From Chromatiales bacterium (lineage in GTDB: Bacteria > Pseudomonadota > Gammaproteobacteria > Thiohalomonadales > Thiohalomonadaceae): a DNA stretch of 33,849 nucleotides. The position numbers were made by a program, and so were the translations under genes. Positions within the stretch are counted from its first letter, which is position 1; every line of letters starts with the position of its first letter. Below the pieces are notes generated by a model. That model saw nothing but the letters and a program-made list of their open reading frames with translations. It did no database searches and had not been told where the DNA came from. Below are positions 2,048 to 33,280 of this stretch, piece after piece. Location: contig QKFD01000079.1 in the NCBI GenBank assembly GCA_003251535.1, positions 1 to 33,849 on the forward strand, read 5' to 3'.

Positions 2048-2512
2048 CTAAATCTCCCCTCGATCCGCCAAACTCACATATCCCCCATCCCCAATCACAA
2101 TCATATCCTGCAACACAATTCTCATCGCCGCCGCCACCTGCTTCAACTCCACCGCAGCCCGAATATCATTAGCTGAGGGTTCCGGTGAACCGAGGGGATG
2201 GTTATGGAGCAAAACGATGCGTTTGGCGCGGATCAGGGCGGCGCTGCGGACGATCTCCTGGGGTTCTGCCAGGACGTAGGTTTCTGTCCCGATGGCGACG
2301 ACTTCGAAGGAGATGATCTCAAACTTGTCGGTGAGGTGGAGGCAGACCAGTTTTTCTTTGGCCTTGTCCTCCATCTCGTTGAAGAGGCGGTAGGCGTGTT
2401 GAGCGGAGTGGGTGGGGGCGTTTAATAGGTCGTCGTCGCCCCGCTTTCGCATGAATGCGGCGTCTGGATTTGCAATGGGTCCCTGGGGGTTGATTGCTAT
2501 TATATTATCCAC
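2048..2512 (-). CDS. Short RadC-family JAMM/MPN domain protein
   Basis: The 154-residue product has the zinc-binding JAMM motif of the RadC family: HNHPLGSPEPSANDI with His103, His105, Ser113 and Asp116 in the HxHx7SxxD arrangement, and Glu70 as the probable catalytic acid. It ends in the usual RadC strand pattern (DMIVIGDGGYVSLADRGEI). Chromosomal RadC proteins are usually over 200 residues and carry an N-terminal helix-hairpin-helix region; here only about 30 unrelated residues precede the JAMM core. Such short forms are often found on mobile elements. The GTG start at 2510-2512 is supported by GGAGAGG about 8 bases upstream and by an in-frame TAA just before it. The biochemical role of the family is still uncertain; metal-dependent hydrolase activity is inferred from the motif. 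It lies downstream of the PKS operon and is probably transcribed separately. Confidence 0.88.
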   Translation of the reverse strand: MDNIIAINPQGPIANPDAAFMRKRGDDDLLNAPTHSAQHAYRLFNEMEDKAKEKLVCLHLTDKFEIISFEVVAIGTETYVLAEPQEIVRSAALIRAKRIVLLHNHPLGSPEPSANDIRAAVELKQVAAAMRIVLQDMIVIGDGGYVSLADRGEI

Positions 2513-2668: not shown

Positions 2669-3493
2669 TTAGCTTTGATGAAATGTGGCCCCTCCCCTGC
2701 TCTTGCGCGCCACCTCTTCCACCATCGCCACCACCTCTCCCACCACCGCCGCCACGCTCTCTTGCATAAAGAAGTGCCCGCCATCCACCAACGCCACTCG
2801 GCAGTCGCTGAGGTAGTCGCGCCACTCAAACGCTTGGATCCCAGCGGTGAAGCGGTCGCTCTGGCCGCCCAGGGCCAGGGCCGGGATGGCGAGGGGTGCG
2901 GTGGGGGCCGGGCACTGTTCGAAGGCGCGGAAGTCGGCGCGGATGGGCTCTTTGAAGAGGTCGAAGAGCGCCTCCCGATCTGCCGGGCTGAAGGGCATTC
3001 CGCCGGAGTCGATCAGGCATTGCAGTAGGGCCGGGTCCTCTAGGGTGGAGTAGGGGGCGTGGTCGGCGCGGCGGTGGAAGGGGCGGCTGGCGGCGAGGAT
3101 CAGCGCCAGGTTGCGCGCCGGTTGTTCCCGCAGTAGTACCTCGGCCAGGTGGTAGGCCTGGTAGCCGCCGAAGCTCTGGCCGAGGAGGACGCTGTGGTTC
3201 AAAAGCTCGGCGGGGAGCGACTGGTGGTAGAGGGCCACCAGCTCCGCCACGCTCTCTAAGGGGGCGCCCCGTATGGCGCCGTGGCCCGGCGGGTCGAGCG
3301 CCCACACCTCTATCCCAGGAGGTAGGGCGTCGGCCAGGGGGCGGAAGGCGAGGGAGTGGCCGCCGACGAAGGGGAAGCAGAGCAGCCGGCCGCTGGCCGC
3401 GCTGCCCTCCTCGCCCTTCAGGCGGCGCAGCCCCAGCCGGCCGCCGGCTAACTTCTGGTAGCCGGCGCTGCCGCCTATGGCATTACTGGACAT
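2669..3493 (-). CDS. Type II thioesterase (alpha/beta hydrolase) of the PKS-NRPS cluster
   Basis: This 274-residue protein has the size and motifs of stand-alone type II thioesterases, which remove wrong or stalled acyl groups from carrier-protein arms. Visible elements are the N-terminal strand RLLCFPFVGGHS (36-47), DPPGHG (67-72), the nucleophile elbow GQSFGG with Ser107, an acid at Asp213 (GGQSDRF) and the catalytic His240 (DGGHFF). The residue before the serine is Gln where His is common (GHSxG); the serine itself is intact. The ATG lies inside the 3' end of the NRPS gene (11-base overlap), so translation is probably coupled. It is the last gene of the operon. Because the NRPS ends in a reductase, this enzyme is more likely a proofreading hydrolase than the release enzyme. 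The C-terminal tail (RKSRGGATFHQS) is polar and not part of the fold. Confidence 0.93.
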   Translation of the reverse strand: MSSNAIGGSAGYQKLAGGRLGLRRLKGEEGSAASGRLLCFPFVGGHSLAFRPLADALPPGIEVWALDPPGHGAIRGAPLESVAELVALYHQSLPAELLNHSVLLGQSFGGYQAYHLAEVLLREQPARNLALILAASRPFHRRADHAPYSTLEDPALLQCLIDSGGMPFSPADREALFDLFKEPIRADFRAFEQCPAPTAPLAIPALALGGQSDRFTAGIQAFEWRDYLSDCRVALVDGGHFFMQESVAAVVGEVVAMVEEVARKSRGGATFHQS

Positions 3494-8265: not shown

Positions 8266-9096
8266 TCATCCAGCGCCGCCAGGGTGTGTAGGCGGATGCC
8301 ATGTCAGGTGCGAAAAGGGGATCCCCCGGGCGCGCACGGCGGCGGCCACGGTGAAGCCAGGGCGCGGATTGGCACTGAACAGGGTCCAGTGGTCGGCGTG
8401 GTCGCGCTCAGCCGCCGCCGACTCGGGATCGCGGATCGCCAGGAGGCGGGGCACTTCGCCCGGCGCCAGGCTGACGTCGAAGTTCTCCAGTGGAAACGAC
8501 AGCCCGGTGCCGCGCCCCTTGAGGTAGGCCTCTTTGCGGGTCCAGGCGTTGAGGAAGCCCTGGCGCCGCAGCGCCGCCGGCAGCCCTGCCAGGGCGGCCG
8601 CCTCGTAGCGGGAGAGGTAGCGCTGGGCGATGGCGTCGATATCGAGATGCAAGCGGTCGCCCTCCACATCGACGCCGATCGCCCCCCGCCGGGTGAGGCC
8701 GATGGCCGACATGCCGTGGGTGTGGGAGACGTTGAAGTGGATGGCGGTGGCCAGCGGGCCGTGGCGCTGCGGATCCAGGGCCGGTTTGCCGGCGTGGCCG
8801 GTGATGAACTGCCACGCCGCCGCCGGTGTCTCGAAGTAGTCCGCCAGCAGCAGCCGCAGCGAGGCGCGGGTGAAGACATAGGCGAAGCGATCCCGGTCGA
8901 AGTGGTAGCGGTCGGCCCGCGCCAGCTCTTCCGGCGTCAGGAGGGCGCGCAGCGCCGCGTACTCCTCGCGCACGGCATCGGGGACCGCCTCACCCTGGCC
9001 CGGCGCCACCGCGGTCAGGTCGAGGGTCCAGAGGTGGACCCCCTCGCCGAGCGGCTGCGGCGGCCGGAAGCGGCCGTGGAACTCAGTGGCTGCCAT
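8266..9096 (-). CDS. Sfp-type 4'-phosphopantetheinyl transferase
   Basis: The 276-residue product transfers phosphopantetheine from CoA to the conserved Ser of carrier domains; the six carriers in this operon are obvious substrates. Motifs are in family order: GHAGKPAL (100-107), FNVSHTHG (121-128), IGVDVEGD with Mg-binding Asp143 and Glu145, and NAWTRKEAYLKGRGTGL with Lys188/Glu189. The length fits the Sfp/Gsp group rather than the small AcpS group. The frame is open for 73 more codons upstream, to 9315, but that part lies inside the preceding small gene and reads as a low-complexity Ser/Arg/Trp-rich shadow. The ATG at 9094-9096 is therefore chosen. It overlaps the end of the 101-residue gene by 14 bases, and 79 bases separate its stop from the NRPS start. 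Confidence 0.95.
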   Translation of the reverse strand: MAATEFHGRFRPPQPLGEGVHLWTLDLTAVAPGQGEAVPDAVREEYAALRALLTPEELARADRYHFDRDRFAYVFTRASLRLLLADYFETPAAAWQFITGHAGKPALDPQRHGPLATAIHFNVSHTHGMSAIGLTRRGAIGVDVEGDRLHLDIDAIAQRYLSRYEAAALAGLPAALRRQGFLNAWTRKEAYLKGRGTGLSFPLENFDVSLAPGEVPRLLAIRDPESAAAERDHADHWTLFSANPRPGFTVAAAVRARGIPFSHLTWHPPTHPGGAG

Positions 9097-9388
9097 GGCT
9101 GCCCGCGGCGGGTTGGGCGATACCGAACTGGGCGGCGATCTCCTGCAACCGCTCCTGCTGCTCGTTGGCATCGACCTGCTTGGCCGCCAAGATCCCCGCC
9201 AGGGTCGCCAGCAGCTCCCCCATCTGCTGATGGCTCGGGCTCTGCTCGCCCAGCTCCTGTTCGACCTTGCGGAGGCGGCGGGTGGGCTCCAGCACCCGCT
9301 GGTTGTAGTCGGCATCGTCCTGGTTGTGGTTGGGCGTGCTGGCGATCGCCTTGAGCAGCGCGCCGATGAAGCTGACGGTTTGGGTCAT
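9083..9388 (-). CDS. Small protein of unknown function in the operon
   Basis: I do not recognise this 101-residue protein. It is probably real: ATG at 9386-9388 with GGAG 8 bases upstream, 18 bases after the pfaD-like stop, and a 14-base overlap with the PPTase start. The sequence is hydrophilic and mostly helical in appearance. A short hydrophobic N-terminus (TVSFIGALLKAIA) is followed by charged segments (EPTRRLRKVEQELGEQ, MGELLATLAGILAAK, NEQQERLQEIAAQFGI) with heptad-like spacing, suggesting a short coiled coil or helical bundle. There is no enzyme motif, metal site or signal peptide. A scaffold, docking or carrier-associated role is possible, but this is only inference from its place between a trans-acting enoyl reductase and the PPTase. 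Confidence 0.8.
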   Translation of the reverse strand: MTQTVSFIGALLKAIASTPNHNQDDADYNQRVLEPTRRLRKVEQELGEQSPSHQQMGELLATLAGILAAKQVDANEQQERLQEIAAQFGIAQPAAGSHGSH

Positions 9389-9406: not shown

Positions 9407-10984
9407 TCAGGGGGCGCCGGCCTCCAACTGGGCCGGCGGCAGCGGTTTAAATTCAAAGGCGGCGGGTGGCAGTGGCAGCCCCTGGGCGGCGAGCCAGCGG
9501 GCCCGCAGCAGGGCGCAGGCGCCGTAGAGGATGTTGAGTGCCATCGGCACCACGCGGCGCTCGGCGGGGGCCTCCAGGAAGGAGCCCCGCGTCCAGTGGT
9601 TGAAGGCGCCCATGATCGCCCCGCACCAGATCTGAAAATCGGTGCTGCGCTCCGCCACCCCCTGCTGCGCCCACTGCGATGAGCGCCCCAGGTACCAGCG
9701 GAAGGCCAGCGCCATGCGCTGCCGCGGGTTGTGTTGTGCCTTGGTCAGCTGGGCCGGCTCGCGCTGGGAGAAGTAGCTCTCCACCTCGGCCCAGACGGCG
9801 GTGAAGGGGACGCGGAAGTAGTAGTGCTCGATCTCCTCCCGCTCCTCTGGCGGGATCGCCTCCCAGGCGCTGTAGCGCTCATAGAGCTGCTGGAGTTTGC
9901 GGGCGCGGGCGGGGTAGAGGGTGCGGTGGCGCACCACCTGCACCTTGGCGCCCAGCTCAAACATATCGGCGGCCGGCGCCTCGGCCACCTGGTGGACATC
10001 CACCTCCGCCAGCAGCTGCTTCACCAGATCGGAGGTGGCCGCCTCACGCGCCGCCTGATTGATGGAGCCGGTCACCAGGTAGTCGGCGCCGGCCATCAAC
10101 GCCGCCGCCGCACTCTCCGGGGTGCCGATGCCACCGGCGGCGCCGATGCGGATATCGGCGGCCGTCGGCTGGCTGCGCGCCAACTCGGCGCGCACCGCCT
10201 GGGCCGCCGCCAGCAGGGCGTGGGTCGGCAGCTTGTCGGTGTGGCCGCCGGAGTCCCCCTCCACGGTGATCTCCTGGGCCAGCGGGATATGCGCCGCCAG
10301 CTCCGCCTCGGTGGCGGAGATCCACCCCTGGCGCAGCAGCTCGGCCACCATTGCGGCGGGCGGCGGCGCCATGAATTTGCGCAGCAGATCGATGCGCGAG
10401 CCCTTGGCGAAGAGGTGGTTGCGCGGCCGCACCCGCCCGTCGCCATCCTGTTGCAGGCCGCGCACCCGGAAGTAGACCAGCGGCAGGGTGATATCCATGA
10501 AGGCGGAGGCGCTCACCCGCCGCACCCCGAGGCGCTGAAACAGCTCCACCAGCGCCCACTCCTGCTGCGGCCGGGTGGGCAGATGCAGCAGGTTGACGCC
10601 AAAGTTTTCCCGGCCCGGCAGGGCGGCGACCATCGCCACGATGGCACGCTCGATGCGATCAGGATCCAGACCGCCGCTGCCGAAAAAGCCGAGCATCCCG
10701 GCCTGCGCCATGGCCACCACCAGCTCCGGCGAGCTGATGCCGCCGGCCATGGCGCAGGCCACGTAGGGGTAGCGCAGGCCGTGCTCGCGCAGGAAGCCGG
10801 CGTGGCCCAGCTGCCCCGGTAGCAGGACCGGCACGCAGCCGGCGAGCTGGTCCGCCGCCGGCGGCTCATCCCGGAGCGCCAGCCCCGCCGCCGTCCGCTC
10901 CAGAAAGAGCGGCCGCTGGCGCAGGCGGTGCAGCGCGTGCGCGGTCAGCTCCGCGGGCGCGGGTAACGGCTCAGAGATAGCCAT
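9407..10984 (-). CDS. PfaD-family trans-acting enoyl reductase
   Basis: The 525-residue flavoenzyme-type protein matches the PfaD/FabK-like (2-nitropropane dioxygenase fold) reductases that act in trans on PUFA synthases and trans-AT polyketide synthases. They reduce enoyl-ACP double bonds with FMN and NAD(P)H. Recognisable parts are YVACAMAGGISSPELV near residues 74-89, FFGSGGL, NFGVNLLH, EGDSGGHTD (about 253-261, a strongly conserved active-site stretch), IGAAGGIGTPE (phosphate-binding loop) and the PfaD-type C-terminal helical region (SYFSQREP..., FQIWCGAIMGAFNHW). Length is normal for the family. No integrated ER domain was seen in either PKS, so this protein would provide any enoyl reduction. 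The ATG (10982-10984) overlaps the SDR stop by 14 bases and has GGGA upstream. Which module it serves cannot be read from the sequence. Confidence 0.93.
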   Translation of the reverse strand: MAISEPLPAPAELTAHALHRLRQRPLFLERTAAGLALRDEPPAADQLAGCVPVLLPGQLGHAGFLREHGLRYPYVACAMAGGISSPELVVAMAQAGMLGFFGSGGLDPDRIERAIVAMVAALPGRENFGVNLLHLPTRPQQEWALVELFQRLGVRRVSASAFMDITLPLVYFRVRGLQQDGDGRVRPRNHLFAKGSRIDLLRKFMAPPPAAMVAELLRQGWISATEAELAAHIPLAQEITVEGDSGGHTDKLPTHALLAAAQAVRAELARSQPTAADIRIGAAGGIGTPESAAAALMAGADYLVTGSINQAAREAATSDLVKQLLAEVDVHQVAEAPAADMFELGAKVQVVRHRTLYPARARKLQQLYERYSAWEAIPPEEREEIEHYYFRVPFTAVWAEVESYFSQREPAQLTKAQHNPRQRMALAFRWYLGRSSQWAQQGVAERSTDFQIWCGAIMGAFNHWTRGSFLEAPAERRVVPMALNILYGACALLRARWLAAQGLPLPPAAFEFKPLPPAQLEAGAP

Positions 10985-11954
10985 CGAAGTGTCCCGCCTC
11001 GCGTAGCCAGGCGATGGTCGGCTCCAGGGTCTCCCGCGCCGAGCGGAAGTTGATCCCCAACTCCTGCCGCGCCTTGCTGTTGTCCATGTACCAGTAGCGG
11101 GTGGCGTAGGGGATGATCTCCGGGGTGTAGGGGAGCTTGATGCCGAGCCGGGTGGCGAGGCGGGTGCCGCCGCGCACCAACCAGGTGGGCACGGTGACGA
11201 TGCGACGCTTGACCCCGAGGATCTCTAGGGTCATCTCCGCCAACTGGCGCACCGTGATGTTGTCGCCGGAGAGGATGTAGCGCTCCCCGGCCCGCCCCTT
11301 CTCCAGGATGGCGACGATGCCGGCGGCGACGTCGTAGACATAGCCGATGCCGTTGCCGCCGTGGGTCACCAGCACCGGATTGGTCTTGAGCAGGTTGATC
11401 AGATTGCGGCCGGTGATGAGGGCGGTGTCGTTGGGGCCGACGGTCTCCGGCGGGTTGGCCACCATCACCGCCAGCCCCTGCTTGGCCGCCTGCCAGCAGA
11501 GCTGCTCCATCTCCAGTTTGGTGCGGGCGAACGGCAGGTCCTCTTTGATGGTGTAGGGGGTCTGCTCGTTGATGAGTTCGGGTTTGTCGGTGCCGTTGAT
11601 GGCGGAGATGCTGCTGATGAAGACCACCCGCAGCCCCGGCTTACCGGCGCGCAGACAGGCGTCCAGCATGTTCTGCGAACCCTGGACGGCGATCTTCTGG
11701 ATCTCCGGCGAGGTGACATCCCGCCAGTCGGAGATGCTGGCCAGATGGATCACCCCATCGCAGTCCGCGATCCCCGGTTCGAGGGAGGCGGGGTCGAGGA
11801 TGTCGCCCACCACCCACTCGATCTCCGGAAAGTCGATCCGGGCGATGGAGCTGGTGGCGCGCCGCAGGCAGCGCACCTGATGCCCGCGCTGGAGCAGCTC
11901 GGCCACCACCGCGTGCCCCATGAATCCAGTCCCACCTGTGACAAACACCTTCAT
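10971..11954 (-). CDS. Extended SDR (NAD-dependent epimerase/dehydratase family), atypical active site
   Basis: The 327-residue protein has the nucleotide-binding GGTGFMG (7-13) and an extended-SDR layout similar to 3-beta-HSD/dihydroflavonol-reductase-like enzymes: VVGDILDP, DGVIHLAS, VFISSISAING, NPPETVGPND and IGYVYDVA. Where these enzymes have YxxxK the sequence reads FARTK: Phe142 replaces the catalytic Tyr (codon TTC), while Lys146 and Ser115/Ser117 remain. The protein may use another proton donor, have reduced activity, or mainly bind cofactor and substrate. A likely job in context is tailoring of a keto, hydroxy or aldehyde group on the product. The ATG at 11954 is preferred over one nine codons upstream because AGGGAG lies 7 bases before it and the Rossmann strand begins at once. 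It follows PKS 2 after a 127-base gap and overlaps the pfaD-like gene. Confidence 0.9.
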   Translation of the reverse strand: MKVFVTGGTGFMGHAVVAELLQRGHQVRCLRRATSSIARIDFPEIEWVVGDILDPASLEPGIADCDGVIHLASISDWRDVTSPEIQKIAVQGSQNMLDACLRAGKPGLRVVFISSISAINGTDKPELINEQTPYTIKEDLPFARTKLEMEQLCWQAAKQGLAVMVANPPETVGPNDTALITGRNLINLLKTNPVLVTHGGNGIGYVYDVAAGIVAILEKGRAGERYILSGDNITVRQLAEMTLEILGVKRRIVTVPTWLVRGGTRLATRLGIKLPYTPEIIPYATRYWYMDNSKARQELGINFRSARETLEPTIAWLREAGHFDGYL

Positions 11955-12081
11955 TGCGACACTCCCTAAAGTTGACTGCATCGGTTACCACTCACCCCGC
12001 CGGGCCAAACTGCGGGCACTCCCCTCCCCGCCCGCCGCGCTCTCTGGCATCGGCAGGAGGGGGCCAACGGTGTGGCGAGGG

Positions 12082-15000
12082 TTACTCCATCACATCGACA
12101 AAGCTGTCGATCCCAAACGTCGCCGCTGCTGGCGGGGCGGCCACCGCCTCTTCCGCGGGCGCCGAACTCGCCGCGGTGGCGGGCGGCAGTACCAGCGGGT
12201 TATCCGCCTCGATCCAGTAGTGCTGGCGCTCGAAGGGGTAGGTGGGGAGCGGCACCCGCTGCCGGCCGCCCGCCTCCCCAATGGCCCCCCAATCGAGGTT
12301 GACCCCGGCGACATAGAGCCGCCCCTGGGCCTCCGCCAGCGCCGCCAGGTCGTCGCGGCCGCGCTGCAACAGCGGCACCCAGTGGCCCTTGGCCGTCTCG
12401 GGGAGCAGCGCCTTGGCCATCCCCACCAATACCGGGTGGGGACCGATCTCGATGAAGACGGTACTGCCCGCCGCCAGCAGCGCCTGGAACCCCTCGGCGA
12501 AGCGCACCGGGGCGCGGATGTGGCGACACCAGTAGTCGGCATCCGGCGTCTCCCCGCGACCGAGCAGGGCGCCGGTGAGGTTGGAGGCGAGCGGCAGGCG
12601 CAGCTGCTGGAAGCGCAACGCCTGGGCAGTGGTGGCAAACTCCGCCAGCGCCGGCTCCATCAACGCCGAGTGGAAGGCGTGGGAGACCTTGAGCGGATGA
12701 CAGCTGTAGCCCGCCTCCTCCAGCTCCGTCAGCAGCGTTTCAAGGGCGGCCAGCGGGCCGCTCACCACGGTGTTGGCCGGCCCGTTGAGGGCGGCGATGG
12801 CGAGTCCTTCACCATGGGCCGCCAGCCGCGGCTGCACCACCTCCGCCGGCGCCAGCACCGCCGCCATACCGCCGCCGGCCGGCAGCGCCTGGATCGCCCG
12901 GCCGCGACTGGCGATCAGCGCCAGCCCCTCCTCCAGGCTGAGGGCACCTGCCACATGGGCGGCGGCGAACTCACCGACGCTGTGGCCGAGCACCGCATCG
13001 GGTTCGATGCCCCACGACTTGAGCAGCGCCACCAGCGCCACCTGGAGGGCAAACAGGGCCGGCTGGGTGTAGCCAGTCTGATTCAACGGCTCCCCGGCCG
13101 CAGTGCCAAACATCACCTCTAACAGTGGTTTTTCCAGTTGATCGGCCAACAGCTGGGCGCAGCGATCCAGGCTCTCGCGGAACACCGGCTCGGCGGCGTA
13201 GAGCGCCTTGGCCATACCGGGAAACTGGGAGCCCTGGCCGGTGAAGAGGAAGGCGACCCGCGGCCGTTTACCGGGCCGGTAGCTCCCGCTCACCGTGTGG
13301 GCGGTCGGACCGTGATCGGCGATCGCACGCAGCTGACGGGCAAACTCCTCGGCGCTGGCGCCGGTGACCGCCAGGCGCTGGAGAAAGTCGGTGCGCCCGT
13401 TGGCGGCGGTGTAGGCCACAGCTGCCAGATCGGCCGACGGCGTGGCGCTGAAGTAGTCGGCGTAGCGCCCCGCCAATTGGCGCAGCGCGCCCTCACTGCG
13501 GGCCGACATCACCAGCGCCCGCGCCTGCTGCCGGCTGGGGGTGGCGGCGGCCGTGGCCGGCGCCTCCTCCAACACCAGGTGGGCGTTGGTGCCGCCGAAG
13601 CCGAAGCCGCTGATCCCCGCCCGCCGCACCCCCTGCACCGGCTGCCACTCGCGCGCCTGATCGATCACGTAGAACGGCGTCTCCTCAAACTGGAGGAGTG
13701 GATTGGGGGCCTGGAAGTGGAGGTTGGGGGTCAGGGTGCGATGTTTCAGCGACAGCACCACCTTGAGCAGCGCCGCTATCCCGGCGGCCGGTTCGAGGTG
13801 GCCGATCTGGGTCTTCACCGAGCCGATGGCGCAGAACTGGCGCCGCTCGGTGGCGTCGCGGAACACCTCGCTCAGGGCGTTGACCTCGATGGGATCCCCC
13901 AGATCGGTGCCGGTGCCGTGGGCCTCGATACAGGAGAGGCTGGCCGGGCTGATGCCGGCCCGCTGGTAGGCCTTGCGCAGCACCGTCATCTGCGACAGCC
14001 GATTGGGGGCGGTCAGGCCGTTGGTGCGGCCATCCTGGTTGACGGCGGTACCCTTGATGACCGCGTGGATGGTGTCGCCGTCGCGCAGCGCATCCCGCAA
14101 CGGTTTCAGCAGCACCATCCCCGCCCCTTCGCCGCGCACATAGCCGTTGGCCGCCTGGTCGAAGGTGTGGCAGTGGCCATCGGGCGACATGAAGCCCCCC
14201 TTGCTGAAGAAGATGAAGGAGCCGGGGGCGATGAGGGCGTGGACACCGCCGGCCAGCGCCATCCGGCAGTCACCCCGCTGGAGGGCCGAGACCGCGTTGT
14301 GGACCGCCACCAGCGAAGAGGAGCAGGCGGTATCCAGGACGAAGCTCGGCCCCTTCAGGTTGAACTGGTAGGAGAGGCGGTTGGCGATGATGGAGAGCGA
14401 GTTGCCGAGCCCCATCATGGCGGTGACCCGCTCGGGGTTGTGGACCCGCGAGGTGGCGTACTCCGCCGAGCTGACGCCGACAAAGACGCCGGTGTCGCTG
14501 CGCTCCGGGGTGTCGCGGCCGTAGCCGGCATCCTCCAGCGCCTCCCACGCCACCTCCAGCATCAGCCGCTGCTGCGGATCCATCTGCTCCGCCTCCAGCG
14601 GCGAGATGCCGAAGAAGAGCGGATCAAACTCGCCGATGAACTCCATGAAGCCGCCCCACTTGGTGTAGCTCTTGCCCGGTTGGGTCGGGTCGGCATCAAA
14701 CAGCTTGGCGCTGGACCAGCGCTCGTCAGAGACCTCGCTGATGCAGTCGCGCCCCTCCTTCAGGTTTTGCCAAAACTCAGCGAGATTGCGCGCCGCCGGG
14801 AAGCGGCCGGAGAGGCCGATGATGGCGATCTCCTCGCCCAACTCGGCGCCAACGGCGGCGGCGGGGAGAGCCGGCCGTGGGGCGCTCGCTGTCGGCGGCG
14901 GTAACGTCCGGCTGGCGGCCGCCCCGCCCTGGCCGGAGAGCCGTAGCAGGAAGTCCAGCTCCACCGTCGCCACCTCGGCGCCGTGGGCGTCGCGCAGCTG

Positions 15001-18000
15001 CACGCTGGCGGTGTAGGCGGCCCGCTTATCGCTGGCGAGTTGGGCCCGGATGCGCGCCTGGTCCGCCTCGGTGACCCGGATCTCGCACTGGAGATCGCTC
15101 AGCCCCGGCAGGCCGTAGTTGATGCGGGAGCCCGCCACCACCGGCAGCAGCGCATACTCCGCGAAGACGCTGGCCAGGGTGAGGGCCGCCGCCGCCTCGG
15201 CGAAGGAGAAGATGGCACCGGCGTAGAGGGAGCCCAGGTGGTTGAGGTTGTCCGGGCCGGCGGGCAGGCGCAGTAGCAGGCCGTCGGGCCAGCGCTCCAG
15301 CAGCTTGAGCCCCAGCCGGTCGATGATGGGGACGCCGGTGGTGGGGGTGAGATCGACCCCACTGGCGGCCGCGACCGGCGCAGCAGCAGTGACCACCGCG
15401 GGCGGCTCCACAGCTGGCGGCACGGCCACGGGCGCGGCCGTCGGCACCGCCTGGGTGAGCCCCTGCCCCTCCAGCCAGGCCACCACCCCGGGCTGTTCGC
15501 TCAGGTAGCCGGCCAGGGCGTCGATGCTGGGGTAGTCAAACAGCAGGGTGGCCGGCAGTTGCAGGCCGGTGTTGTCCTGCAACTCCCGCACGGCGCGCAC
15601 GGCGAGGATGGAGTCGAAGCCCATCTCCAGGAAGTTCTGCAACAGGTCGAGGCTGGCGCTATCCACCTCCAGCACCTGCGCCATGATCCGCAGCACCTCC
15701 TCCTGTACCGCCTCCCGCAGCTGCGGCGAGCCGAGCGCCAGGCCCGTCTCGACGACGGCGGCGGCCGGCGCCCGCACCTCGGCCGCCGGTTTGGGCGGCT
15801 GCGGCGCCAGACCGAGCTTGGCCACCGCCAGCTGGCTGAGATCGGTGGTCAACGCCCGCTCCAGGGCCGCCATGGCGAGATCGCGGCCGATGAGGGCCAC
15901 CCCGCGGGCGCGGGCCAGCTCGGTCAACGGCTGGGCCAGACCGACCCCATCCCACAGCCCCCAGTTGAGGGCCAGGCTGGGCAGACCGCTCTGGGCGGTG
16001 CGGTAGCTGGCGAAGCTATCCAGATAGCGGTTGGCCGCTGCATAGTCCCCCTGCCCCATGTTGCCCTCCAGGGCGGCCACCGAGGAGAAGAGCACAAACA
16101 GCTCCGGCCGATCTTGGCGGGTCAGCCGATCCAGCAGCCAGGTGCCCTCGGTCTTGGCGCGCAACACCGCCCACCACTCCGCCAGCGACTTGCCCTTGAG
16201 CAGGCTGTCACGGGTGATCCCGGCGGCGTGGAACAGGCCGGTCAGCGGACCGACCCGGCGCCGCGCCTCCGTCAGTGCCGCCTCCAGCGCTGCCGCATCG
16301 GCCACGTCGGCGGCCAGCGCCACCACCTCGGCCGCGCCGAGGCCATGCAGCTCCGCCAGCAGCTCCGGCGCCAGCTGCGCCGAGCGGCCCAGCAGCACCA
16401 GCCGCGGCCGGCAGCTGGCGGCCAGATAGCGCGCCAGTTCGAGGCCGATCCCGCCCAGGCCGCCGGTGATGAGGTAGACCCCACCCTGCCGCAGACGGGA
16501 GGGGGCGGGCGCCGCCTCCGGCAGCGGCTGCCAGGTCTCGCGGAACCGCTCCGCGCCGACATAGGCGATCCCGGCCAGCGCGCCACTCGGCTGCCAGCCC
16601 AGCTCCGCCATCACCTGGGCGGTCGCCTGCTCCAGGCCGGCCCGCGGGTCGAGATCGACACAGCTGATGGCGAGGGAGGGGTTCTCCGCCGCAATGGACT
16701 TGGCCAGCCCCCACAGGGTGGCCCCCTCCGGTCGCAGCGCCGGCCGGGCGCTGGCCACCGCCTGGGCGCCGCGGGTGAAGATCCGCAGCTGCCGCGGCCG
16801 CTTGAGGGGGGAGTTGAGCAGCGCCTGGAAGAGGCGGAACAGCAGGGTGCCGGAGCGCTCCAGGGCGCTGTGCAGCCCCTGGAGATCCTCGATCTCCGGC
16901 CCACCGAAGCGGCCCAGATGGATCACCGCATCCGGCGCCCAACTCGCCTCCGCCAGCCCCTGCAAGAGGGCGGGGAACTCCGCGGGCCGCTCGGCATCTG
17001 CCTCGTGCAGATCGACCCCCTGCTCCCGCAGTCGAGTCGCCACCAGTCCGGTGAAGAGCGGCTCCTCCCCCAGCAGCAGCAGCCGCTGGCCGGTGAGCGC
17101 CGCCGGGGCGGCGAGCGCCTCGGGCTGCCACGTCTGTTGCTGTAGCCAACCGGCAAGGTGGGCGCCGCTGGGCTGCGGCTTGGCCGGAGTGAAGTCCCGC
17201 AGGGCGATCCCCTCGAACTCCAGCACCACCCGGCCGCTGTCGGCCTCGGCGATGACGGCATCGGCCTGCACCAGGCCGGCGCTCATCTGCGGCCCCGGCC
17301 GGCCGACGCAGATGAGCGGGGTGGCGGGGTCGAGCGGTGCCCCCCACAGCCGGATGCGCTGCACGGCGAAGGGGACAAAGGTGCCGGCCTGGTGGCGGGC
17401 CAGCAGGGCCCCCACCGCCTGTAGCGCACCATCGAGCAGCCCCGGATGGATGGCGCCTGGCGCCTGCCAGCCGTTGGGGTTGGCCAGCAACTCGGCGACC
17501 ACCTCCCGCGCACCTAAGGAGAGCCGCTGTATGGGGCGGAAGCCCGGCCCATAGAGCAGGCCGCGCTCCGCCAGCTGGGGGTAGATCCGCTCAGCCGTGG
17601 CGCTCTCACTGGCGGGGTCCGCCAGCTGCGCCCGCAGCGCCGCCAGATCGATGGGTGGCGGCGCAACGGGCGGCGGCGCGACGGGCGCGACCGCATCGAC
17701 CTGCGCCAGCAGGCGGGCGCACTCCTGCCACTGCCCATCCCCCTCCGCCGCCAGGGTGATGGCCCACTGGCCAGGCCCCTGCGCCACCGCCTCCAGGCGG
17801 GCGGGCGGCACGTGGCCACCCACCACCGCCAGCGGCCGGCTCAGGTTGAGTCCGCGGATCTCGCGCAGCGTGGCGTTGGGCTCCACCCCCTGCACCACCT
17901 GGCGCGCCAGCTCCACCATGGCCATGCCGGGTAGCACCGGCCGGCCCTGTACCTGGTGGTCCGCCAGCGGCCACGCCTGGGCCGGCAGTTGCAGATCAAA

Positions 18001-21000
18001 CTGGGTAGCCTGCCCACTGCTGCGCGGTTGGCCGATCCAGGCCGTCGCCTGCGCCATACCGGCCACGGCGACGGCGGCTCGGGTCCCCGCCAGCGGCTCC
18101 GGCCAGCAGCGCTGGCGCTCAAACGGATAGGTGGGCAGGGCGATCCGGCGCAGCCCGAGGCCGCTATGCAGCCGCTCGAACTCCAGCTCGACCCCCAGCA
18201 CAAAGAGCTGGGCGGCGATGCTGAGGAGATCGACACACGCCTCCTCCGCCACCGCCTGCCAGGCCAGCGGCTGCGGCTGCACCGGCAACCCCTCGGCCTG
18301 GAGGATCGGCAAGAGTAGATCCTCAAACAGCGGACCGGAGCAGACCCCCAACAGCGCCGCACACAATTCGGTGGGTAGCTGCTGGAGTCTAGGCAGCGCC
18401 CAGCTGCGGAACTGCGCCTCCTGCTCCTGGCGATCGCCGGCCTGATCACCCGCCTGGCCGGTAAATACCAGTGAACCGCGGATGGTCCCCTTGGCGCTGG
18501 CCAGGCGGTGGATCTCCAACTTATCGGCCAGCTGATCCTTGTAGCGCGCCACCAGTGCCAGACGGTGGCGCAAGGGCCGGCGGCCGACATTGGAGGTGAA
18601 GCAGATATCCCCCAGGCGCTCGCCCTGCTCGCCGTTGAGATACTCCAGCAGGCGCTCCACCTGGGCGGCCAGGGCGCTGGCGGTGCGGGCCGAGAGGGTC
18701 AGCAGGTGGGCGGGCCGCGCCAGCGTCTGCGACGGCTGACGAACCGCCGGATACTCCTCCACCACCACGTGGGCGTTGGCGCCGCCGAAGCCGAACGAAC
18801 TGACACCGCCCAAACGCGGCCCCGGCCGTTCGGGCCAGGGGCGGGTGGTGTCATTGACGAAGAAGGGGGTCTCCTCGAAGCGGATGGCCGGGTTGGCGCT
18901 CTCGTAGTGCAGGCTGGCGGGGATCTCCCGCTGCTTGAGCGCCAGGATCAGCTTGAACAGACCGGCCAGCCCGGCGCTGGTCTCCAGGTGACCGATGTTG
19001 CTCTTCACCGAGCCGAGGGCGCACGACGCCGGTGGTAGATCGAAGGGGCGGAACGCCTCTGCCAGGCCGCGGATCTCGATGGGATCGCCCAGGCCGGTGC
19101 CGGTGCCGTGGGCCTCGATGTAGCCGACCCGGCGGGGATCGATGCCGGCATCGCGCCACGCCTCCTCCACCACCCGACGCTGCGCCTTGGGGTTGGGGGC
19201 GGTGAGGCCGGCCTTGGAGTGGCCGTCGTGGTTGACGGCGCTGCCCTTGATGACGGCCCAGATGGGATCGCCATCCCGCTCCGCCGCCGCCAGCGGCTTG
19301 ATCAACAGCGCCGCCACCCCCTCGCCGCGCACATAGCCGTCGGCGCGGGCGTCGAAGGTGCGGCAGCGCCCCTCCTTGGAGAGCATCCCCGCCTGGCCGA
19401 AGATGATCGCCCCATCGGCGGTGACGATGAGGCTGGTGCCGCCCACCACGGCGGCGTCGATATCGCCGCTGCGCAGCGCCCGGCAGGCGCTGTGGAGCGC
19501 CACCAGTGAGGAGGAGCAGGCGGTATCCACGGTCATGCTGGGGCCGCTCCAGTCGAACAGATAGGAGAGGCGGTTGGGGATCATCGACAGGGCGTTGCCG
19601 GAGCCGGTGTGGGCGTCGTGGTAGCGCCCGGCCTGGCGCAGCGCCTCGGTGTACTCGGCGGCGCCGGCACCGACATAGACGCCGGTGCGCACCGTCGCCA
19701 GCTGCTCCGGGGTGTAGCCGGCCTGCTCCAGCGCCTCCCAGGTCACCTCCAGGAAGAGCCGCTGCTGGGGGTCCATCTGGAGTGCCTCGCGCATGGAGAG
19801 GCCAAACAGGGCCGGCTCGAAGTCGGCGATGTTCTCCATGAAGCCACCCCACTTGCTGACGGTGGTGGCGGGGGCGCGGCCGCTGGGGTCGTAGTGGTCA
19901 CGCCAGTTCCAGCGGCTCGCCGGCACCTCGGTGACCGAATCGACCCCGCCCCGCAGGTTCTGCCAAAACTGCTCCAGGGAGCCGGCGCCGGGGAAGCGGC
20001 AGGCGAGGCCGATGATGGCGATATCCCCCACCGCCCCGCTGCTCGGCGGGACGGCAGCCAGTGGCTCGATCGGCGGCGCCGAGGCTGCCGGCGGCGGCTC
20101 GCTGGGCAGGGCCGCGGCCGGAGCCGGCGCCGCAATCGGCGCAGCGGCAGGCGGTGGTGGGGCAGCGGCGGCCGGCAGCAGCAGCGCCGCGAACTCCGCC
20201 GGGTGGGCGCCGGCCAGGTAGGCCGCCAGCTCGTTGATGCTGGGGTACTCGAACAGCAGGGTGGGATCGAGGCCGAGGCCGGTCTCCTTCTCCAGGCCGG
20301 TCTTGACCTGCACCGCCATGATGGAGTCGAAGCCCAGCTCCATGAAGTTCTGCCGCGGGCTGATCTGATCGGTGGGGATCTTGAGGATCTCGGAGATGCG
20401 GGCGGTCAGGTGGCCCTTCAGGGCGCGGGTCAGCGCCTCCGGCTCCACCCCGCTCGCCACTGCCGCGCTGGTAGCGGCCGGCTGCGCCGCCGACGCCTGG
20501 CTCTCGCTGGTGAGCCGGGTCACCACCCAGGAGCCGCTGCCGGGCAGACCGGCGGGCGGCAGCTGCGCCGTCTGGCGCAGGGCGTACTCCAGCAGCCGCA
20601 CCCCTTGGCGCGGCTTGATGAAGTGGAGATCTGCCACGCTGGGGCCGGCCTTGGCCAGGTCCCGCAGCATCCCCACCTCCTGCCAGGGGCCCCAGTTGAG
20701 GCTGAGGGCCGGCAGTCCCGCCTGCCGCAGCTGCGCCGCCAGGGCGTCGAGGTAGGCGTTGGCGGCGGCGTAGTCGCCCTGGCCGATGTTGCCGCTGACG
20801 GCACTCACCGAGGAGAAGAGCAGGAGAAAGTCGAGCGCCAGGGGCCGGGTCAGCTCGGCCAGCAGCGCCGCCCCCTGCATCTTCGGCCGCAGCACGGCGG
20901 CAAAGCGCTCGGCGCTCTTGCTGCGCAGCAGGCCATCATCCACCACCCCGGCGGCGTGGATGACGCCGTGCAGCCCACCCCAGCGGGCCTGCACCTGCGC

Positions 21001-22761
21001 CAGGAGTGTCGTCAGCGCCTCCCGGTCGGCGATGTCGGCGCTCACCAGTAGCAGTTCGGCCCCCAGATCGATCAGGCGCTGGAGCTTGGCCAGCCGCTCA
21101 CGCAGCGCTGCCGGGGTCGCCGGATCGCCCAGTAGCGCCGGCCACTGCGCCTGGGGCGGGAGGGGCGAGCGCCCCACCAGTGCCAGCCGCGCCTGGTAGC
21201 GACGGGCGAGGTGATCCGCCACCTCCAGACCGATCCCCCCCAGACCGCCGGTGATGAGGTAGATCCCCTGCTCGCGGAATGGCGGCGGCGCCATCTGCTC
21301 TGGGGCACTGAAGGGCTCCAGCTCCGGCAGCCAGCGCTGACCGGCGCGGTAGAGCACCTCCGGCGTCGGCGGCCCGGCCAGTAGCTCCGTGAACAGCTGC
21401 TCGGCCTGGGTGGCGGGGGTCAGCCCCTCCGCCTGGAACTCGATGCTGCCGGTCTTGATATTGCTGTGCTCCAGCGGGATCACCCGCGCCAGCCCGCGCA
21501 GGGCCGCCTGCCCGGGGGCGCTGGCCTCGGTGGCGGCGGTGACCAGCCAGAGCTGGAGCGGGAGGCGGCCGAGGCCGCTCAGCGCCTGCACTAGCGCCAA
21601 CAGCGCCAGTACACCGGCCTCTGCGCTAGCCGCCGTCCCCTCGCCGGCAAACAGGACGATCTGGGAGGGGAACTCCCCCGCCGCTTGCAGCGCCGTCACC
21701 AGCGCCGCCGCCGACTCCGCAGGCGGCCAGGCATGGCGCTGGACCTGCTGGTTGTGGCCCTGGAGCTGCGCCGCCAGCAGGCGGGCGCTCTCACCGCCAC
21801 CGAGCAGCAGCCAGCCCCCACCCGAGGGGGGCGCCAGCGGCGGCGTGGTGGCGGGCTGCTGGCGCCAGATCCGGCGGCGCAGCCACTCGGCGGGCGGCTC
21901 GCTCCGCTCCCGCAGCAGCACCCGTTTGGAGGTGACCCCCCGCAGCAGGGCCAGCACCTCGCCCGCCGGGTTGAACAGGCGGATATCGCCGCACAGCGCA
22001 GCGCCGTCCGGGGCCACCGGCGCCACCCCGGCGCTGGCGGTGAGGTGGGCAAAGACCGTCCCGCTGATGGGGCGGTCGAGGATGATCTCCGCCGCCTCCG
22101 CCGGCACAAAGGCGGCCCCAGCCGCCTCGGGGTGGCTCCCGACGATCCAGGCCCCGAGGGACTGGAGCGCCCCATCCAGTAGACCGGGGTGGAGCAGGTG
22201 GCGGGAGGCGCGCCCCTCCAGCTGGGCCAACCCCTGGTTGGCAGCGAGCCGCAGCTCCCGCAGGCTGCGCAGGGTGGGGCCGTAGCTGAGGCCGATATCT
22301 TCGTAGCGCCGGTAGATCTCCAGCGGCGCCAGGGTCTCCTGACACTGTGCCCGCAGCGGCTCCAGCGCCACCGCAGGGCCGAAGGGGGCCGGCTCTGGCC
22401 GCGACAGCTGCCCCTCGCAGAAGAGGGTCTGGCCGCCGTCGGCGGGGGCCGAGAGCAGCCGGAACGCCGCGACCCCAGGCCGCAGCTGCTCCAACTCCAG
22501 CTCCACCGCCACTGGCCGCTCTGCGGTCAGGGCGAGGGGTGCCAGCCAGCGCACCGCCGCGAGGCGCAGCGGCCCCTCGATCCCTAAGGCGCGGGCCCCC
22601 GCCAGGACCGTCTCGATCCAGAGGGCGGCCGGTACCAGGGCCGCCCCCAGCACCTCGTGATCGCGGATGAAAGGTTCCTGCTCCCAGTTAAAAACGCGCT
22701 CGATGACCACCTTGTCGGGGAGATCGATGGGCGTAACGCCATCACTCTGCGGTCTGCTCAT
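12082..22761 (-). CDS. Type I PKS: DH-KR-ACP-KS-DH-KR-ACP-hotdog-KS-AT
   Basis: 3559 residues. DH 1-285 (His35 and Pro44 in HxxxGxxxxP, Asp196) and KR about 490-740 (ITGGLGGIG, Tyr664, Asn668) complete the module begun by the KS-AT of the preceding protein; ACP Ser813. KS 912-1340 (Cys1082, His1218, His1258). Residues about 1345-1555 are only a linker ending in LPTYPFERQRCWPE, with no acyltransferase GHSxG. DH 1575-1860 (His1602, Asp1777), KR about 2090-2320 (Tyr2240), ACP Ser2384. A hotdog thioesterase-like domain follows at about 2468-2612 (NHLGSLYAG, Glu2522). KS 2643-3066 (Cys2813, His2948, His2988). AT about 3168-3485 (GHSVGE Ser3261, HAFHS 3361-3365, the malonyl-CoA-type motif). The protein ends with a Pro/Ala linker and a short acidic tail, without an ACP. 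Its ATG overlaps the upstream PKS stop by 20 bases. Both KRs keep the late Asp of the LDD motif that is linked to B-type stereochemistry. Confidence 0.97.
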   Translation of the reverse strand: MSRPQSDGVTPIDLPDKVVIERVFNWEQEPFIRDHEVLGAALVPAALWIETVLAGARALGIEGPLRLAAVRWLAPLALTAERPVAVELELEQLRPGVAAFRLLSAPADGGQTLFCEGQLSRPEPAPFGPAVALEPLRAQCQETLAPLEIYRRYEDIGLSYGPTLRSLRELRLAANQGLAQLEGRASRHLLHPGLLDGALQSLGAWIVGSHPEAAGAAFVPAEAAEIILDRPISGTVFAHLTASAGVAPVAPDGAALCGDIRLFNPAGEVLALLRGVTSKRVLLRERSEPPAEWLRRRIWRQQPATTPPLAPPSGGGWLLLGGGESARLLAAQLQGHNQQVQRHAWPPAESAAALVTALQAAGEFPSQIVLFAGEGTAASAEAGVLALLALVQALSGLGRLPLQLWLVTAATEASAPGQAALRGLARVIPLEHSNIKTGSIEFQAEGLTPATQAEQLFTELLAGPPTPEVLYRAGQRWLPELEPFSAPEQMAPPPFREQGIYLITGGLGGIGLEVADHLARRYQARLALVGRSPLPPQAQWPALLGDPATPAALRERLAKLQRLIDLGAELLLVSADIADREALTTLLAQVQARWGGLHGVIHAAGVVDDGLLRSKSAERFAAVLRPKMQGAALLAELTRPLALDFLLLFSSVSAVSGNIGQGDYAAANAYLDALAAQLRQAGLPALSLNWGPWQEVGMLRDLAKAGPSVADLHFIKPRQGVRLLEYALRQTAQLPPAGLPGSGSWVVTRLTSESQASAAQPAATSAAVASGVEPEALTRALKGHLTARISEILKIPTDQISPRQNFMELGFDSIMAVQVKTGLEKETGLGLDPTLLFEYPSINELAAYLAGAHPAEFAALLLPAAAAPPPPAAAPIAAPAPAAALPSEPPPAASAPPIEPLAAVPPSSGAVGDIAIIGLACRFPGAGSLEQFWQNLRGGVDSVTEVPASRWNWRDHYDPSGRAPATTVSKWGGFMENIADFEPALFGLSMREALQMDPQQRLFLEVTWEALEQAGYTPEQLATVRTGVYVGAGAAEYTEALRQAGRYHDAHTGSGNALSMIPNRLSYLFDWSGPSMTVDTACSSSLVALHSACRALRSGDIDAAVVGGTSLIVTADGAIIFGQAGMLSKEGRCRTFDARADGYVRGEGVAALLIKPLAAAERDGDPIWAVIKGSAVNHDGHSKAGLTAPNPKAQRRVVEEAWRDAGIDPRRVGYIEAHGTGTGLGDPIEIRGLAEAFRPFDLPPASCALGSVKSNIGHLETSAGLAGLFKLILALKQREIPASLHYESANPAIRFEETPFFVNDTTRPWPERPGPRLGGVSSFGFGGANAHVVVEEYPAVRQPSQTLARPAHLLTLSARTASALAAQVERLLEYLNGEQGERLGDICFTSNVGRRPLRHRLALVARYKDQLADKLEIHRLASAKGTIRGSLVFTGQAGDQAGDRQEQEAQFRSWALPRLQQLPTELCAALLGVCSGPLFEDLLLPILQAEGLPVQPQPLAWQAVAEEACVDLLSIAAQLFVLGVELEFERLHSGLGLRRIALPTYPFERQRCWPEPLAGTRAAVAVAGMAQATAWIGQPRSSGQATQFDLQLPAQAWPLADHQVQGRPVLPGMAMVELARQVVQGVEPNATLREIRGLNLSRPLAVVGGHVPPARLEAVAQGPGQWAITLAAEGDGQWQECARLLAQVDAVAPVAPPPVAPPPIDLAALRAQLADPASESATAERIYPQLAERGLLYGPGFRPIQRLSLGAREVVAELLANPNGWQAPGAIHPGLLDGALQAVGALLARHQAGTFVPFAVQRIRLWGAPLDPATPLICVGRPGPQMSAGLVQADAVIAEADSGRVVLEFEGIALRDFTPAKPQPSGAHLAGWLQQQTWQPEALAAPAALTGQRLLLLGEEPLFTGLVATRLREQGVDLHEADAERPAEFPALLQGLAEASWAPDAVIHLGRFGGPEIEDLQGLHSALERSGTLLFRLFQALLNSPLKRPRQLRIFTRGAQAVASARPALRPEGATLWGLAKSIAAENPSLAISCVDLDPRAGLEQATAQVMAELGWQPSGALAGIAYVGAERFRETWQPLPEAAPAPSRLRQGGVYLITGGLGGIGLELARYLAASCRPRLVLLGRSAQLAPELLAELHGLGAAEVVALAADVADAAALEAALTEARRRVGPLTGLFHAAGITRDSLLKGKSLAEWWAVLRAKTEGTWLLDRLTRQDRPELFVLFSSVAALEGNMGQGDYAAANRYLDSFASYRTAQSGLPSLALNWGLWDGVGLAQPLTELARARGVALIGRDLAMAALERALTTDLSQLAVAKLGLAPQPPKPAAEVRAPAAAVVETGLALGSPQLREAVQEEVLRIMAQVLEVDSASLDLLQNFLEMGFDSILAVRAVRELQDNTGLQLPATLLFDYPSIDALAGYLSEQPGVVAWLEGQGLTQAVPTAAPVAVPPAVEPPAVVTAAAPVAAASGVDLTPTTGVPIIDRLGLKLLERWPDGLLLRLPAGPDNLNHLGSLYAGAIFSFAEAAAALTLASVFAEYALLPVVAGSRINYGLPGLSDLQCEIRVTEADQARIRAQLASDKRAAYTASVQLRDAHGAEVATVELDFLLRLSGQGGAAASRTLPPPTASAPRPALPAAAVGAELGEEIAIIGLSGRFPAARNLAEFWQNLKEGRDCISEVSDERWSSAKLFDADPTQPGKSYTKWGGFMEFIGEFDPLFFGISPLEAEQMDPQQRLMLEVAWEALEDAGYGRDTPERSDTGVFVGVSSAEYATSRVHNPERVTAMMGLGNSLSIIANRLSYQFNLKGPSFVLDTACSSSLVAVHNAVSALQRGDCRMALAGGVHALIAPGSFIFFSKGGFMSPDGHCHTFDQAANGYVRGEGAGMVLLKPLRDALRDGDTIHAVIKGTAVNQDGRTNGLTAPNRLSQMTVLRKAYQRAGISPASLSCIEAHGTGTDLGDPIEVNALSEVFRDATERRQFCAIGSVKTQIGHLEPAAGIAALLKVVLSLKHRTLTPNLHFQAPNPLLQFEETPFYVIDQAREWQPVQGVRRAGISGFGFGGTNAHLVLEEAPATAAATPSRQQARALVMSARSEGALRQLAGRYADYFSATPSADLAAVAYTAANGRTDFLQRLAVTGASAEEFARQLRAIADHGPTAHTVSGSYRPGKRPRVAFLFTGQGSQFPGMAKALYAAEPVFRESLDRCAQLLADQLEKPLLEVMFGTAAGEPLNQTGYTQPALFALQVALVALLKSWGIEPDAVLGHSVGEFAAAHVAGALSLEEGLALIASRGRAIQALPAGGGMAAVLAPAEVVQPRLAAHGEGLAIAALNGPANTVVSGPLAALETLLTELEEAGYSCHPLKVSHAFHSALMEPALAEFATTAQALRFQQLRLPLASNLTGALLGRGETPDADYWCRHIRAPVRFAEGFQALLAAGSTVFIEIGPHPVLVGMAKALLPETAKGHWVPLLQRGRDDLAALAEAQGRLYVAGVNLDWGAIGEAGGRQRVPLPTYPFERQHYWIEADNPLVLPPATAASSAPAEEAVAAPPAAATFGIDSFVDVME
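18097..18151 (-). repeat. 55-base exact repeat, copy in PKS 2
   Basis: These 55 bases are identical to 28193-28247. They encode the conserved RIALPTYPFERQRCWPE segment that closes the AT-less linker after the first KS of this protein. The corresponding segments after the two real AT domains differ at many bases, so identity here is more than conserved protein sequence requires. Confidence 0.85.
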
Positions 22762-33258: not shown

Positions 33259-33280
33259 CGTCGTCTTTCTCCCGCCCCTC

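Follow-up and report, generated by a model that had tools for sequence, protein, structure and literature searches.

A single hotdog domain of the DUF4442/PA5026 type between an acyl carrier protein and the next ketosynthase of a modular polyketide synthase

We analyzed a 33,849-nucleotide stretch of DNA from a Chromatiales bacterium (GenBank contig QKFD01000079.1; hereafter the window), which carries a hybrid polyketide synthase (PKS)-nonribosomal peptide synthetase (NRPS) cluster, and in particular a hotdog domain embedded in one of its two PKS proteins, PKS 2. This domain lies between the acyl carrier protein (ACP) of module 3, ACP3, and the ketosynthase (KS) of module 4, KS4, and both its fold and its placement are nearly certain. 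The same ACP-hotdog-KS order is present in related clusters of two cyanobacteria, the embedded copies form a single clade, and the domain is under purifying selection between the two cyanobacteria. The most likely reading, which we put forward tentatively, is that the domain would act as a cis acyl-ACP3 hydrolase with an editing or checkpoint role ahead of KS4.

An earlier note on this DNA, made from the sequence alone, had placed a hotdog at residues 2468-2612 of PKS 2 and at 14926-15360, and these positions correspond precisely, although the strand needs correcting to minus. The order that it gave is borne out by the motifs GFDSI at residue 2381, before the hotdog, and LDTACSSS at residue 2809, after it; Pfam finds two PP-binding stretches in PKS 2. 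The motif NHLGSLYAGAIFSFAEAAAA begins at residue 2507, and the codon of Glu-2522, the downstream acid of the proposed hotdog pattern, occupies 15196-15198. Pattern and acid stand, but the PaaI/YiiD group is not the best family, DUF4442/PA5026 being closer. In a Pfam comparison of whole PKS 2, a DUF4442 (PF14539) match well above chance is found at residues 2496-2602 (E 2.2e-9, 38.0 bits), and the excised domain scores 44.8 bits, against a curated cut-off of 25. YiiD_C (PF09500, cut-off 27) remains below its cut-off on the whole protein (17.7 bits) and on the excised domain (24.9 bits), and the domain also falls under TIGR02447 (19.3 against 97.1) and under the thioesterase cut-offs of TIGR00369 (16.8 against 36.6), TIGR02286 (14.2 against 118.9) and PF03061 (4HBT; 17 against 20.6). 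The corresponding Cylindrospermum PKS, described below, passes both DUF4442 (39.8 bits) and PF09500 (29.2 bits) and is below the TIGR02447 cut-off too (31.6 bits). A phmmer search of PDB sequences with the window domain gives PA5026 (1SH8) at an E-value of 1e-12, then PaaI (1J1Y) at 0.021, and no Mad entries up to an E-value of 1. A profile built from the three embedded and 35 stand-alone sequences matches 1SH8 (1.9e-55) and the MadB structures 8AYV (1.9e-11) and 1T82 (2.3e-8), values that reflect the group more than the embedded copy. No other DUF4442 match above the cut-off is present in the window's own genome.

The AlphaFold2 model of the domain, built with 37 relatives, has hotdog topology, its long helix spanning model residues 55-73, with a mean predicted local distance difference test score (pLDDT) of 85.9 and a predicted template modeling score of 0.82; a model of ACP3-hotdog-KS4 from three sequences had a pLDDT of 37.9 and was not used. 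The outcome that the earlier note regarded as fatal, a structure prediction lacking the hotdog fold, therefore did not occur. Foldseek against the PDB returns 1SH8 (E 1.5e-10), 8AYV (7.8e-8), 3DKZ (9.8e-7) and the Arthrobacter 4-hydroxybenzoyl-CoA thioesterase 1Q4S (2.8e-6). In VIA-align three structures are tied at the top, namely 1SH8 (Z 16.2, root-mean-square deviation (rmsd) 2.6, 142 residues aligned), 8AYV (15.7, 2.4 and 140) and 1T82 (15.7, 2.6 and 137), and below them stand 3LMB (14.5) and the general thioesterases (about 12-13), which tie with FabZ (12.2). On this model, the domain is a single hotdog whose nearest structures are PA5026 and the Mad decarboxylases. Assignment to a known structural linker was rejected, given that the Pfam match, the AlphaFold2 model and the Foldseek matches are all those of hotdog proteins. 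Nor is the domain the normal PKS dehydratase (DH), in agreement with the earlier note: HxxxGxxxxP is absent from it, and module 3 keeps its own DH, with HQVQGRPVLP at residue 1602 and the Asp motif at 1772. PKS 2 contains two PS-DH stretches and two DH motif pairs, all outside the hotdog; among the 38 hotdogs, eight are matched by PS-DH (PF14765/PF21089) at E-values up to 1 (best 0.0021), and the window copy is not one of them. A collapsed PKS DH was rejected because Pfam places DUF4442 here and PS-DH elsewhere in PKS 2, and a frameshift or chimera because the frame is open (a single open reading frame of 3559 residues) and because two further genomes show the same order.

PA5026, a stand-alone DUF4442 protein of Pseudomonas aeruginosa annotated as "probable thioesterase", is the best sequence match and, tied with MadB, the top structure match. 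It shares the N-x-NH-x-G-x-x-YAG...E stretch with the embedded domain but has PGG after the acid, where the embedded copies have AAA or VAA. PaaI and 4HBT-II (1J1Y, 1Q4S) are likewise single hotdogs with an acid at the HGGxxxxLAE/D position; they differ in being stand-alone enzymes of coenzyme A (CoA) esters, in having the His and first Gly of HGG where Tyr and Ala are found here, and in their weaker match. AziG and the enediyne proteins CalE7 and DynE7 are discrete hotdog thioesterases that serve PKS pathways. AziG (5HMB) is also a structural match (VIA-align Z 12.7, rmsd 2.4, 120 residues aligned), but these proteins are separate and act in trans, whereas the embedded domain forms part of an elongating PKS, with an ACP before it and a KS after it. 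PKS dehydratases (PS-DH) and PfaC-type DH domains resemble it in having the hotdog fold inside a PKS, although PS-DH is a double hotdog with HxxxGxxxxP and Asp and the embedded domain a single one.

The earlier note knew of no standard PKS module with this order, which fits our results, but the arrangement is not unique, since two cyanobacteria share it. The pattern NHx[GK][TSV][MLI]YAG[AV] was scanned over one genome per species (84,980 species) and gave 454 stretches, 408 of which were confirmed; reading frames were checked at the best 80 of these 408. Among these 80, two stretches lie in PKS frames, in Cylindrospermum sp. FACHB-282 (L033, 3654-residue frame) and Chlorogloeopsis fritschii PCC 6912 (L034, a frame of at least 1274 residues truncated at the contig end); the frames of the other 78 do not exceed 352 residues. 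The two PKS-frame copies are the top two matches of the scan (1e-29 and 1e-27; the next is 4e-21). Because the pattern forces N2507, H2508 and Y2513-G2515 and limits their neighbors, copies with a broken motif would escape it. Whole-domain surveys, which are independent of the motif, covered 369 + 388 + 367 + 384 = 1508 genomes, with at most 9-10 candidates scored per genome and frames of a few hundred residues judged by size. They list no further embedded copy beyond those of the window's genome and of Cylindrospermum (G385), the largest other frame having 945 residues. In the window's class, searched with a protein query, a match is found in 31 of 369 genomes and a giant frame only in the window's own (next largest, 613 residues); in the class of G385, seven of 388 genomes match and the only giant frame is that of G385 itself. 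Matches are present in 108 of 367 genomes in the phylum of G774, the genome of L036 (largest frame 755 residues), and in 133 of 384 in the class of G775, the genome of L066 (largest frame 945 residues). Among near relatives, four of 56 genomes have a match, the window's own included, as do none of the 19 genomes of its family. A tblastn search of a plasmid collection gives a single match, in a 167-residue frame of Nocardia farcinica, and no embedded copy, and the 36 pattern stretches found in viral contigs yield none that is confirmed.

The two cyanobacterial clusters are related to that of the window and have the hotdog at the same position, and ACP-hotdog-KS is for this reason a trait of a cluster family found in two families of Nostocales and in the window's organism. 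PKS 2 of the window is 44% identical to its Cylindrospermum counterpart over 3270 residues and 51% identical to the visible C-terminal part of the Chlorogloeopsis protein over 1195 residues. The cyanobacterial NRPS genes are 50-52% identical to that of the window over about 1560 residues, the PfaD-like genes are 55-57% identical to the window reductase, and the short-chain dehydrogenase/reductase (SDR) adjoining Cylindrospermum PKS 1 is 51.5% identical to the window SDR over 332 residues. The Cylindrospermum PKSs also have one acyltransferase (AT) match per protein, as in the window, but its PKS 1 is longer, with FAAL, three KS domains, a methyltransferase and one AT. No second copy of the cluster was found among 388 genomes in the order of G385, where PfaD-like matches other than G385's own are at most 51% identical, with up to three candidates scored per genome at E-values up to 1e-100. 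Two further observations concern the Cylindrospermum cluster. A gene for a 450-residue PapA_C/condensation-type acyltransferase (L117:16641-17993; PF16911, E 1.2e-21) adjoins the SDR and PKS 1, and no such gene was seen in the window cluster. In addition, a 483-residue stretch containing a ketoreductase (KR) is 95.7% identical between two of its PKS proteins (P0009 residues 3151-3633 and P0010 residues 1892-2374; L117 and L033), which suggests that modules were duplicated or underwent gene conversion recently.

In a tree of 38 domains (three embedded copies and 35 of 78 stand-alone proteins), the embedded copies form one clade with branch support 100/99. Nei-Gojobori counts between Cylindrospermum and Chlorogloeopsis give a ratio of nonsynonymous to synonymous substitution rates (dN/dS) of 0.205 for the hotdog, compared with 0.563 and 0.689 for the flanking linkers on the ACP3 side (38 codons) and the KS4 side (47 codons), 0.027 for ACP3, 0.067 for KS4 and 0.133 for AT4. 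The KS-AT linker region has a ratio of 0.181, and the C-terminal tail that follows the AT one of 0.271. All these ratios are rough because dS is near saturation (0.7-1.5) and the linkers align badly. Between the window and Cylindrospermum the hotdog is 36.0% identical, ACP3 60.5%, KS4 64.9% and AT4 52.8%, and the linkers before and after the hotdog 26% and 23%. The constraint on the hotdog thus has sharp boundaries, although ACP, KS and AT are constrained more strongly. All three embedded copies share N2505, N2507, H2508 and E2522, and conservation of these residues in the 35 stand-alone proteins is 97-100%; the NH and YAG columns are imposed by the search pattern, and N2505 and E2522 lie outside it. 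Twenty-five columns are at least 90% conserved in the stand-alone proteins, and 13 of them are kept in all three embedded copies. Outside the pattern, seven of 19 conserved columns (G2484, P2500, N2505, F2518, E2522, D2591 and G2594) are kept in all three, against a background of 11 of 114 (hypergeometric p 2.7e-4, with two of the three copies being close relatives and therefore not independent trials). Lost from all three copies are T2519, G2525, G2526, D2534 and K2580, and from the cyanobacterial copies only, F2533, P2540 and P2552; at G2525 and G2526, which are 94% and 100% conserved in the stand-alone proteins, all three copies have Ala. In the alignment, the catalytic-type residues have been kept while the region after the acid, which is probably part of the pocket, has changed.

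The position of Glu-2522 is that of the catalytic acid known for 4HBT-II and proposed for PaaI. It lies in YAGAIFSFAE, at the acid of the HGGxxxxLAE/D motifs, of which the acid and the second Gly are kept and the His and first Gly are replaced by Tyr and Ala. According to PMC516016, 4HBT-II has the motif HGGAS-x-ALAE, in which Glu73 is active, and PaaI the motif HGG-x-IF-x-LAD, whose Asp is proposed to be catalytic. Asn-2507 precedes Glu-2522 by 15 residues, as Gln58 precedes Glu73 in 4HBT-II according to the same paper.

On the hydrolase reading, a DUF4442/PA5026 hotdog of the stand-alone type would have entered an ancestral PKS through a fusion that probably happened once and would have been retained after ACP3, where it would act in cis on the ACP3-bound chain, or on a wrong acyl group, ahead of KS4. 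PKSs are homodimers with the KS as the dimer core. A single hotdog would supply half an active site, and the two copies in the homodimer would pair, as they should be able to do given the KS dimer behind them and linkers of about 49 and 30 residues. The Asn-2505/Asn-2507 loop of one chain would then stand opposite Glu-2522 of the partner chain, with the thioester carbonyl held by Asn-2507 and the backbone of Ala-2514/Gly-2515 and Glu-2522 serving as base or nucleophile in thioester hydrolysis. As a result, stalled or misprimed acyl groups would be cleared from ACP3, or the chain would pass a checkpoint before KS4. We prefer hydrolysis because hotdog thioesterases are equipped with the same combination of an Asn and an acid, and action in cis on the growing chain is probable because the two cyanobacterial clusters keep the hotdog at the same place. 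Moreover, module 3 has no AT match, so that ACP3 would have to be loaded by another AT, with a plausible risk of misloading. Several points nevertheless weigh against this reading. We know of no activity for PA5026 or DUF4442 in the literature consulted; a type II thioesterase is already encoded in the window cluster, which may make editing by the hotdog superfluous there; MadB, a decarboxylase, ties structurally with PA5026 (Z 15.7 and 16.2), and the general thioesterases tie with FabZ. Both identity and dN/dS show the hotdog to be less constrained than ACP3, KS4 and AT4, and the loss of stand-alone features just after the acid (G2525 and G2526 to Ala, D2534 and, in the cyanobacteria, also F2533 and P2540) suggests that the substrate or the reaction may have changed. 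A broader account is possible but doubtful as a whole, namely that of a cis single-hotdog enzyme with an active site formed only across PKS chains, acting as an ACP3-KS4 checkpoint by a reaction not so far known from elongating modules, be it selective in-line hydrolysis, a shift of the double bond or decarboxylation, acquired once and moved with the cluster between cyanobacteria and, judging by G+C content only, another bacterial lineage.

Other activities can be envisaged for the same residues. An enoyl isomerase shifting the alpha,beta double bond to beta,gamma on ACP3, or a second dehydratase before KS4, seems unlikely to us, even though the KR and DH of module 3 lead one to expect an enoyl chain on ACP3 and FabZ (7QV0, Z 12.2, rmsd 2.6, 120 residues aligned; also 3AZ9) is level with the general thioesterases in the VIA-align list. 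The 14 residues from His-2508 to Glu-2522 equal the spacing of the FabA pair His70/Asp84, with FabZ having Glu, as given in PMC516016; the NH pair is, however, general in the DUF4442 group, being invariant in the 35 stand-alone proteins (although imposed there by the search pattern), and it is also found in the Pseudomonas putida decarboxylase MadB, so that the His is not specific to FabA-like chemistry. FabZ falls 3.5-4 Z units short of PA5026 and MadB and is not among the 50 Foldseek matches listed. In Cylindrospermum, the DH of module 3 has HxxxDxxxxP on visual inspection and the HxxxG pattern is unmatched, which counts in favor of this reading, but the window's own module 3 DH keeps its motifs.

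Decarboxylation, an option absent from the earlier note, is raised by the structural tie of MadB with PA5026. A MadB-type enzyme would serve loading or safety by decarboxylating malonyl-ACP3, or another beta-carboxyacyl-ACP3, to acetyl-ACP3, a role that we regard as improbable. MadB (8AYV) is the second Foldseek entry, and 8AYV and 1T82 tie with 1SH8 in VIA-align. MadA-C and MadB (PF09500) are dimeric hotdogs acting on malonyl-ACP, and catalysis by MadB involves Asn45 (more than 100-fold loss when mutated) together with Asn43, His47 and Thr49 (10-fold), according to PMC8666670; unlike the embedded domain, which is fused to a PKS, MadA-C is fused to GNAT. Asn43 and Asn45 align with N2505 and N2507, and Thr49 with S2511 (Ser/Thr), and PMC8666670 also describes the use of Asn by LnmK, a methylmalonyl-ACP decarboxylase that has the hotdog fold and belongs to a PKS pathway. 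In both cyanobacterial copies Arg is present at the position of Mad Arg124, which is called crucial in PMC12093956, and the Cylindrospermum PKS exceeds the PF09500 cut-off. Against this, the alignment gives MadB no acid at the position of E2522, which is kept in three of three embedded copies; His47 is replaced by L2509 (Ile in the cyanobacteria), Phe51, invariant in Mad proteins, by Y2513, and Arg124 by A2582 in the window, whose domain lacks both a Mad phmmer match and a PF09500 score above the cut-off. In addition, acetyl-ACP3 formed from malonyl-ACP3 in an elongating module would halt extension. We give a similarly small chance to a non-catalytic dimerization or docking element that places ACP3 near KS4. 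Since single hotdogs dimerize, as PMC8666670 describes for MadA-C and MadB, such an element could tighten the PKS dimer between variable linkers, and both the loss of the stand-alone GG after the acid and the faster divergence of the hotdog relative to ACP3, KS4 and AT4 are consistent with it. Nevertheless, N2505 and E2522 are kept at only 36% identity between the window and Cylindrospermum, and a scaffold need not keep them.

The genes of the window cluster all lie on the minus strand, with a G+C content of about 70% across the PKS cluster (Table 1), a value that speaks against a cyanobacterial source. Each PKS has one AT match, at its C-terminal end, after KS2 in PKS 1 and KS4 in PKS 2, and the KS1 and KS3 modules are without an AT match in Pfam; a single AT may therefore supply two ACPs or work in trans. 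The HAFH motif of AT4 is presumably that of malonyl specificity, and the reductase that follows the SDR we take to be PfaD-like and a trans-acting enoyl reductase.

Table 1. Cluster genes of the window and parts of PKS 2 around the embedded hotdog
Feature	Position	Strand	Domains or basis
PKS 1 gene	22742..32191	-	FAAL-ACP-KS1-DH-KR-ACP1-KS2-AT2; domain and motif matches
PKS 2 gene	12082..22761	-	DH-KR-ACP2-KS3-DH-KR-ACP3-hotdog-KS4-AT4; domain and motif matches
SDR, epimerase/3-beta-HSD-like	10971..11981	-	
Presumed PfaD-like reductase (NMO + FabD_helical_ins)	9407..10984	-	
Phosphopantetheinyl transferase	8266..9315	-	ACPS PF01648
NRPS: ACP-condensation-adenylation-peptidyl carrier protein-thioester reductase (terminal)	3483..8186	-	
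Discrete alpha/beta-hydrolase type II thioesterase	2669..3493	-	PF00975
Embedded DUF4442/PA5026-type single hotdog, residues 2475-2610	14932..15339	-	Pfam, phmmer, AlphaFold2, Foldseek, dN/dS
Putative active-site stretch N2505-L-N2507-H2508-x-G-x-x-Y-A-G-x-x-F-x-x-x-E2522	15196..15249	-	
ACP3 (module 3), residues 2350-2425, GFDSI	15487..15714	-	Pfam PP-binding, motif
ACP3-hotdog linker, residues 2426-2474, Pro/Ala/Val-rich, poorly conserved	15340..15486	-	
Hotdog-KS4 linker, residues 2611-2640	14842..14931	-	
KS4, residues 2641-3065, Cys-His-His motifs at 2809, 2946, 2983	13567..14841	-	Pfam ketoacyl-synt 2643-2891
AT4, residues 3171-3488, GHSVG + HAFH	12298..13251	-	Pfam Acyl_transf_1 3171-3488

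Next to the type II thioesterase lies a gene for a 154-residue RadC-like JAB domain protein (2048-2512, minus strand; PF04002, E 6.3e-29), followed at 3-1205 on the minus strand by an incomplete collagen-like protein with Gly-x-y repeats. The latter lies in a stretch with a G+C content of 49%, which, set against the value for the PKS cluster, points to a compositional border near 2 kb. At the other end of the window, a tandem repeat with a 240-bp unit (33280-33849; 2.4 copies, 94% matches) reaches the end of the contig.

Modular PKS modules use few domain types, and the order of these serves product prediction; double hotdog DH and product template domains are standard in PKSs. To our knowledge, the PKS domain types do not include a conserved and seemingly active hotdog placed between an ACP and the KS that follows. 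The ACP-hotdog-KS order is not described among the open-access titles and abstract openings listed, a set mostly outside the subscription literature and hence weak evidence of absence. What is new about the embedded domain is its location in the assembly line, its fold being known and its chemistry probably so. Products of assembly lines with ACP-hotdog-KS may be mispredicted. An editing or gating function would make the hotdog an integral proofreading step, which would be of interest to those who engineer PKSs, and isomerization or decarboxylation would be chemistry new to the ACP-KS position. The arrangement would also tie DUF4442, a widespread and uncharacterized family, to acyl-ACP substrates and make its function testable.

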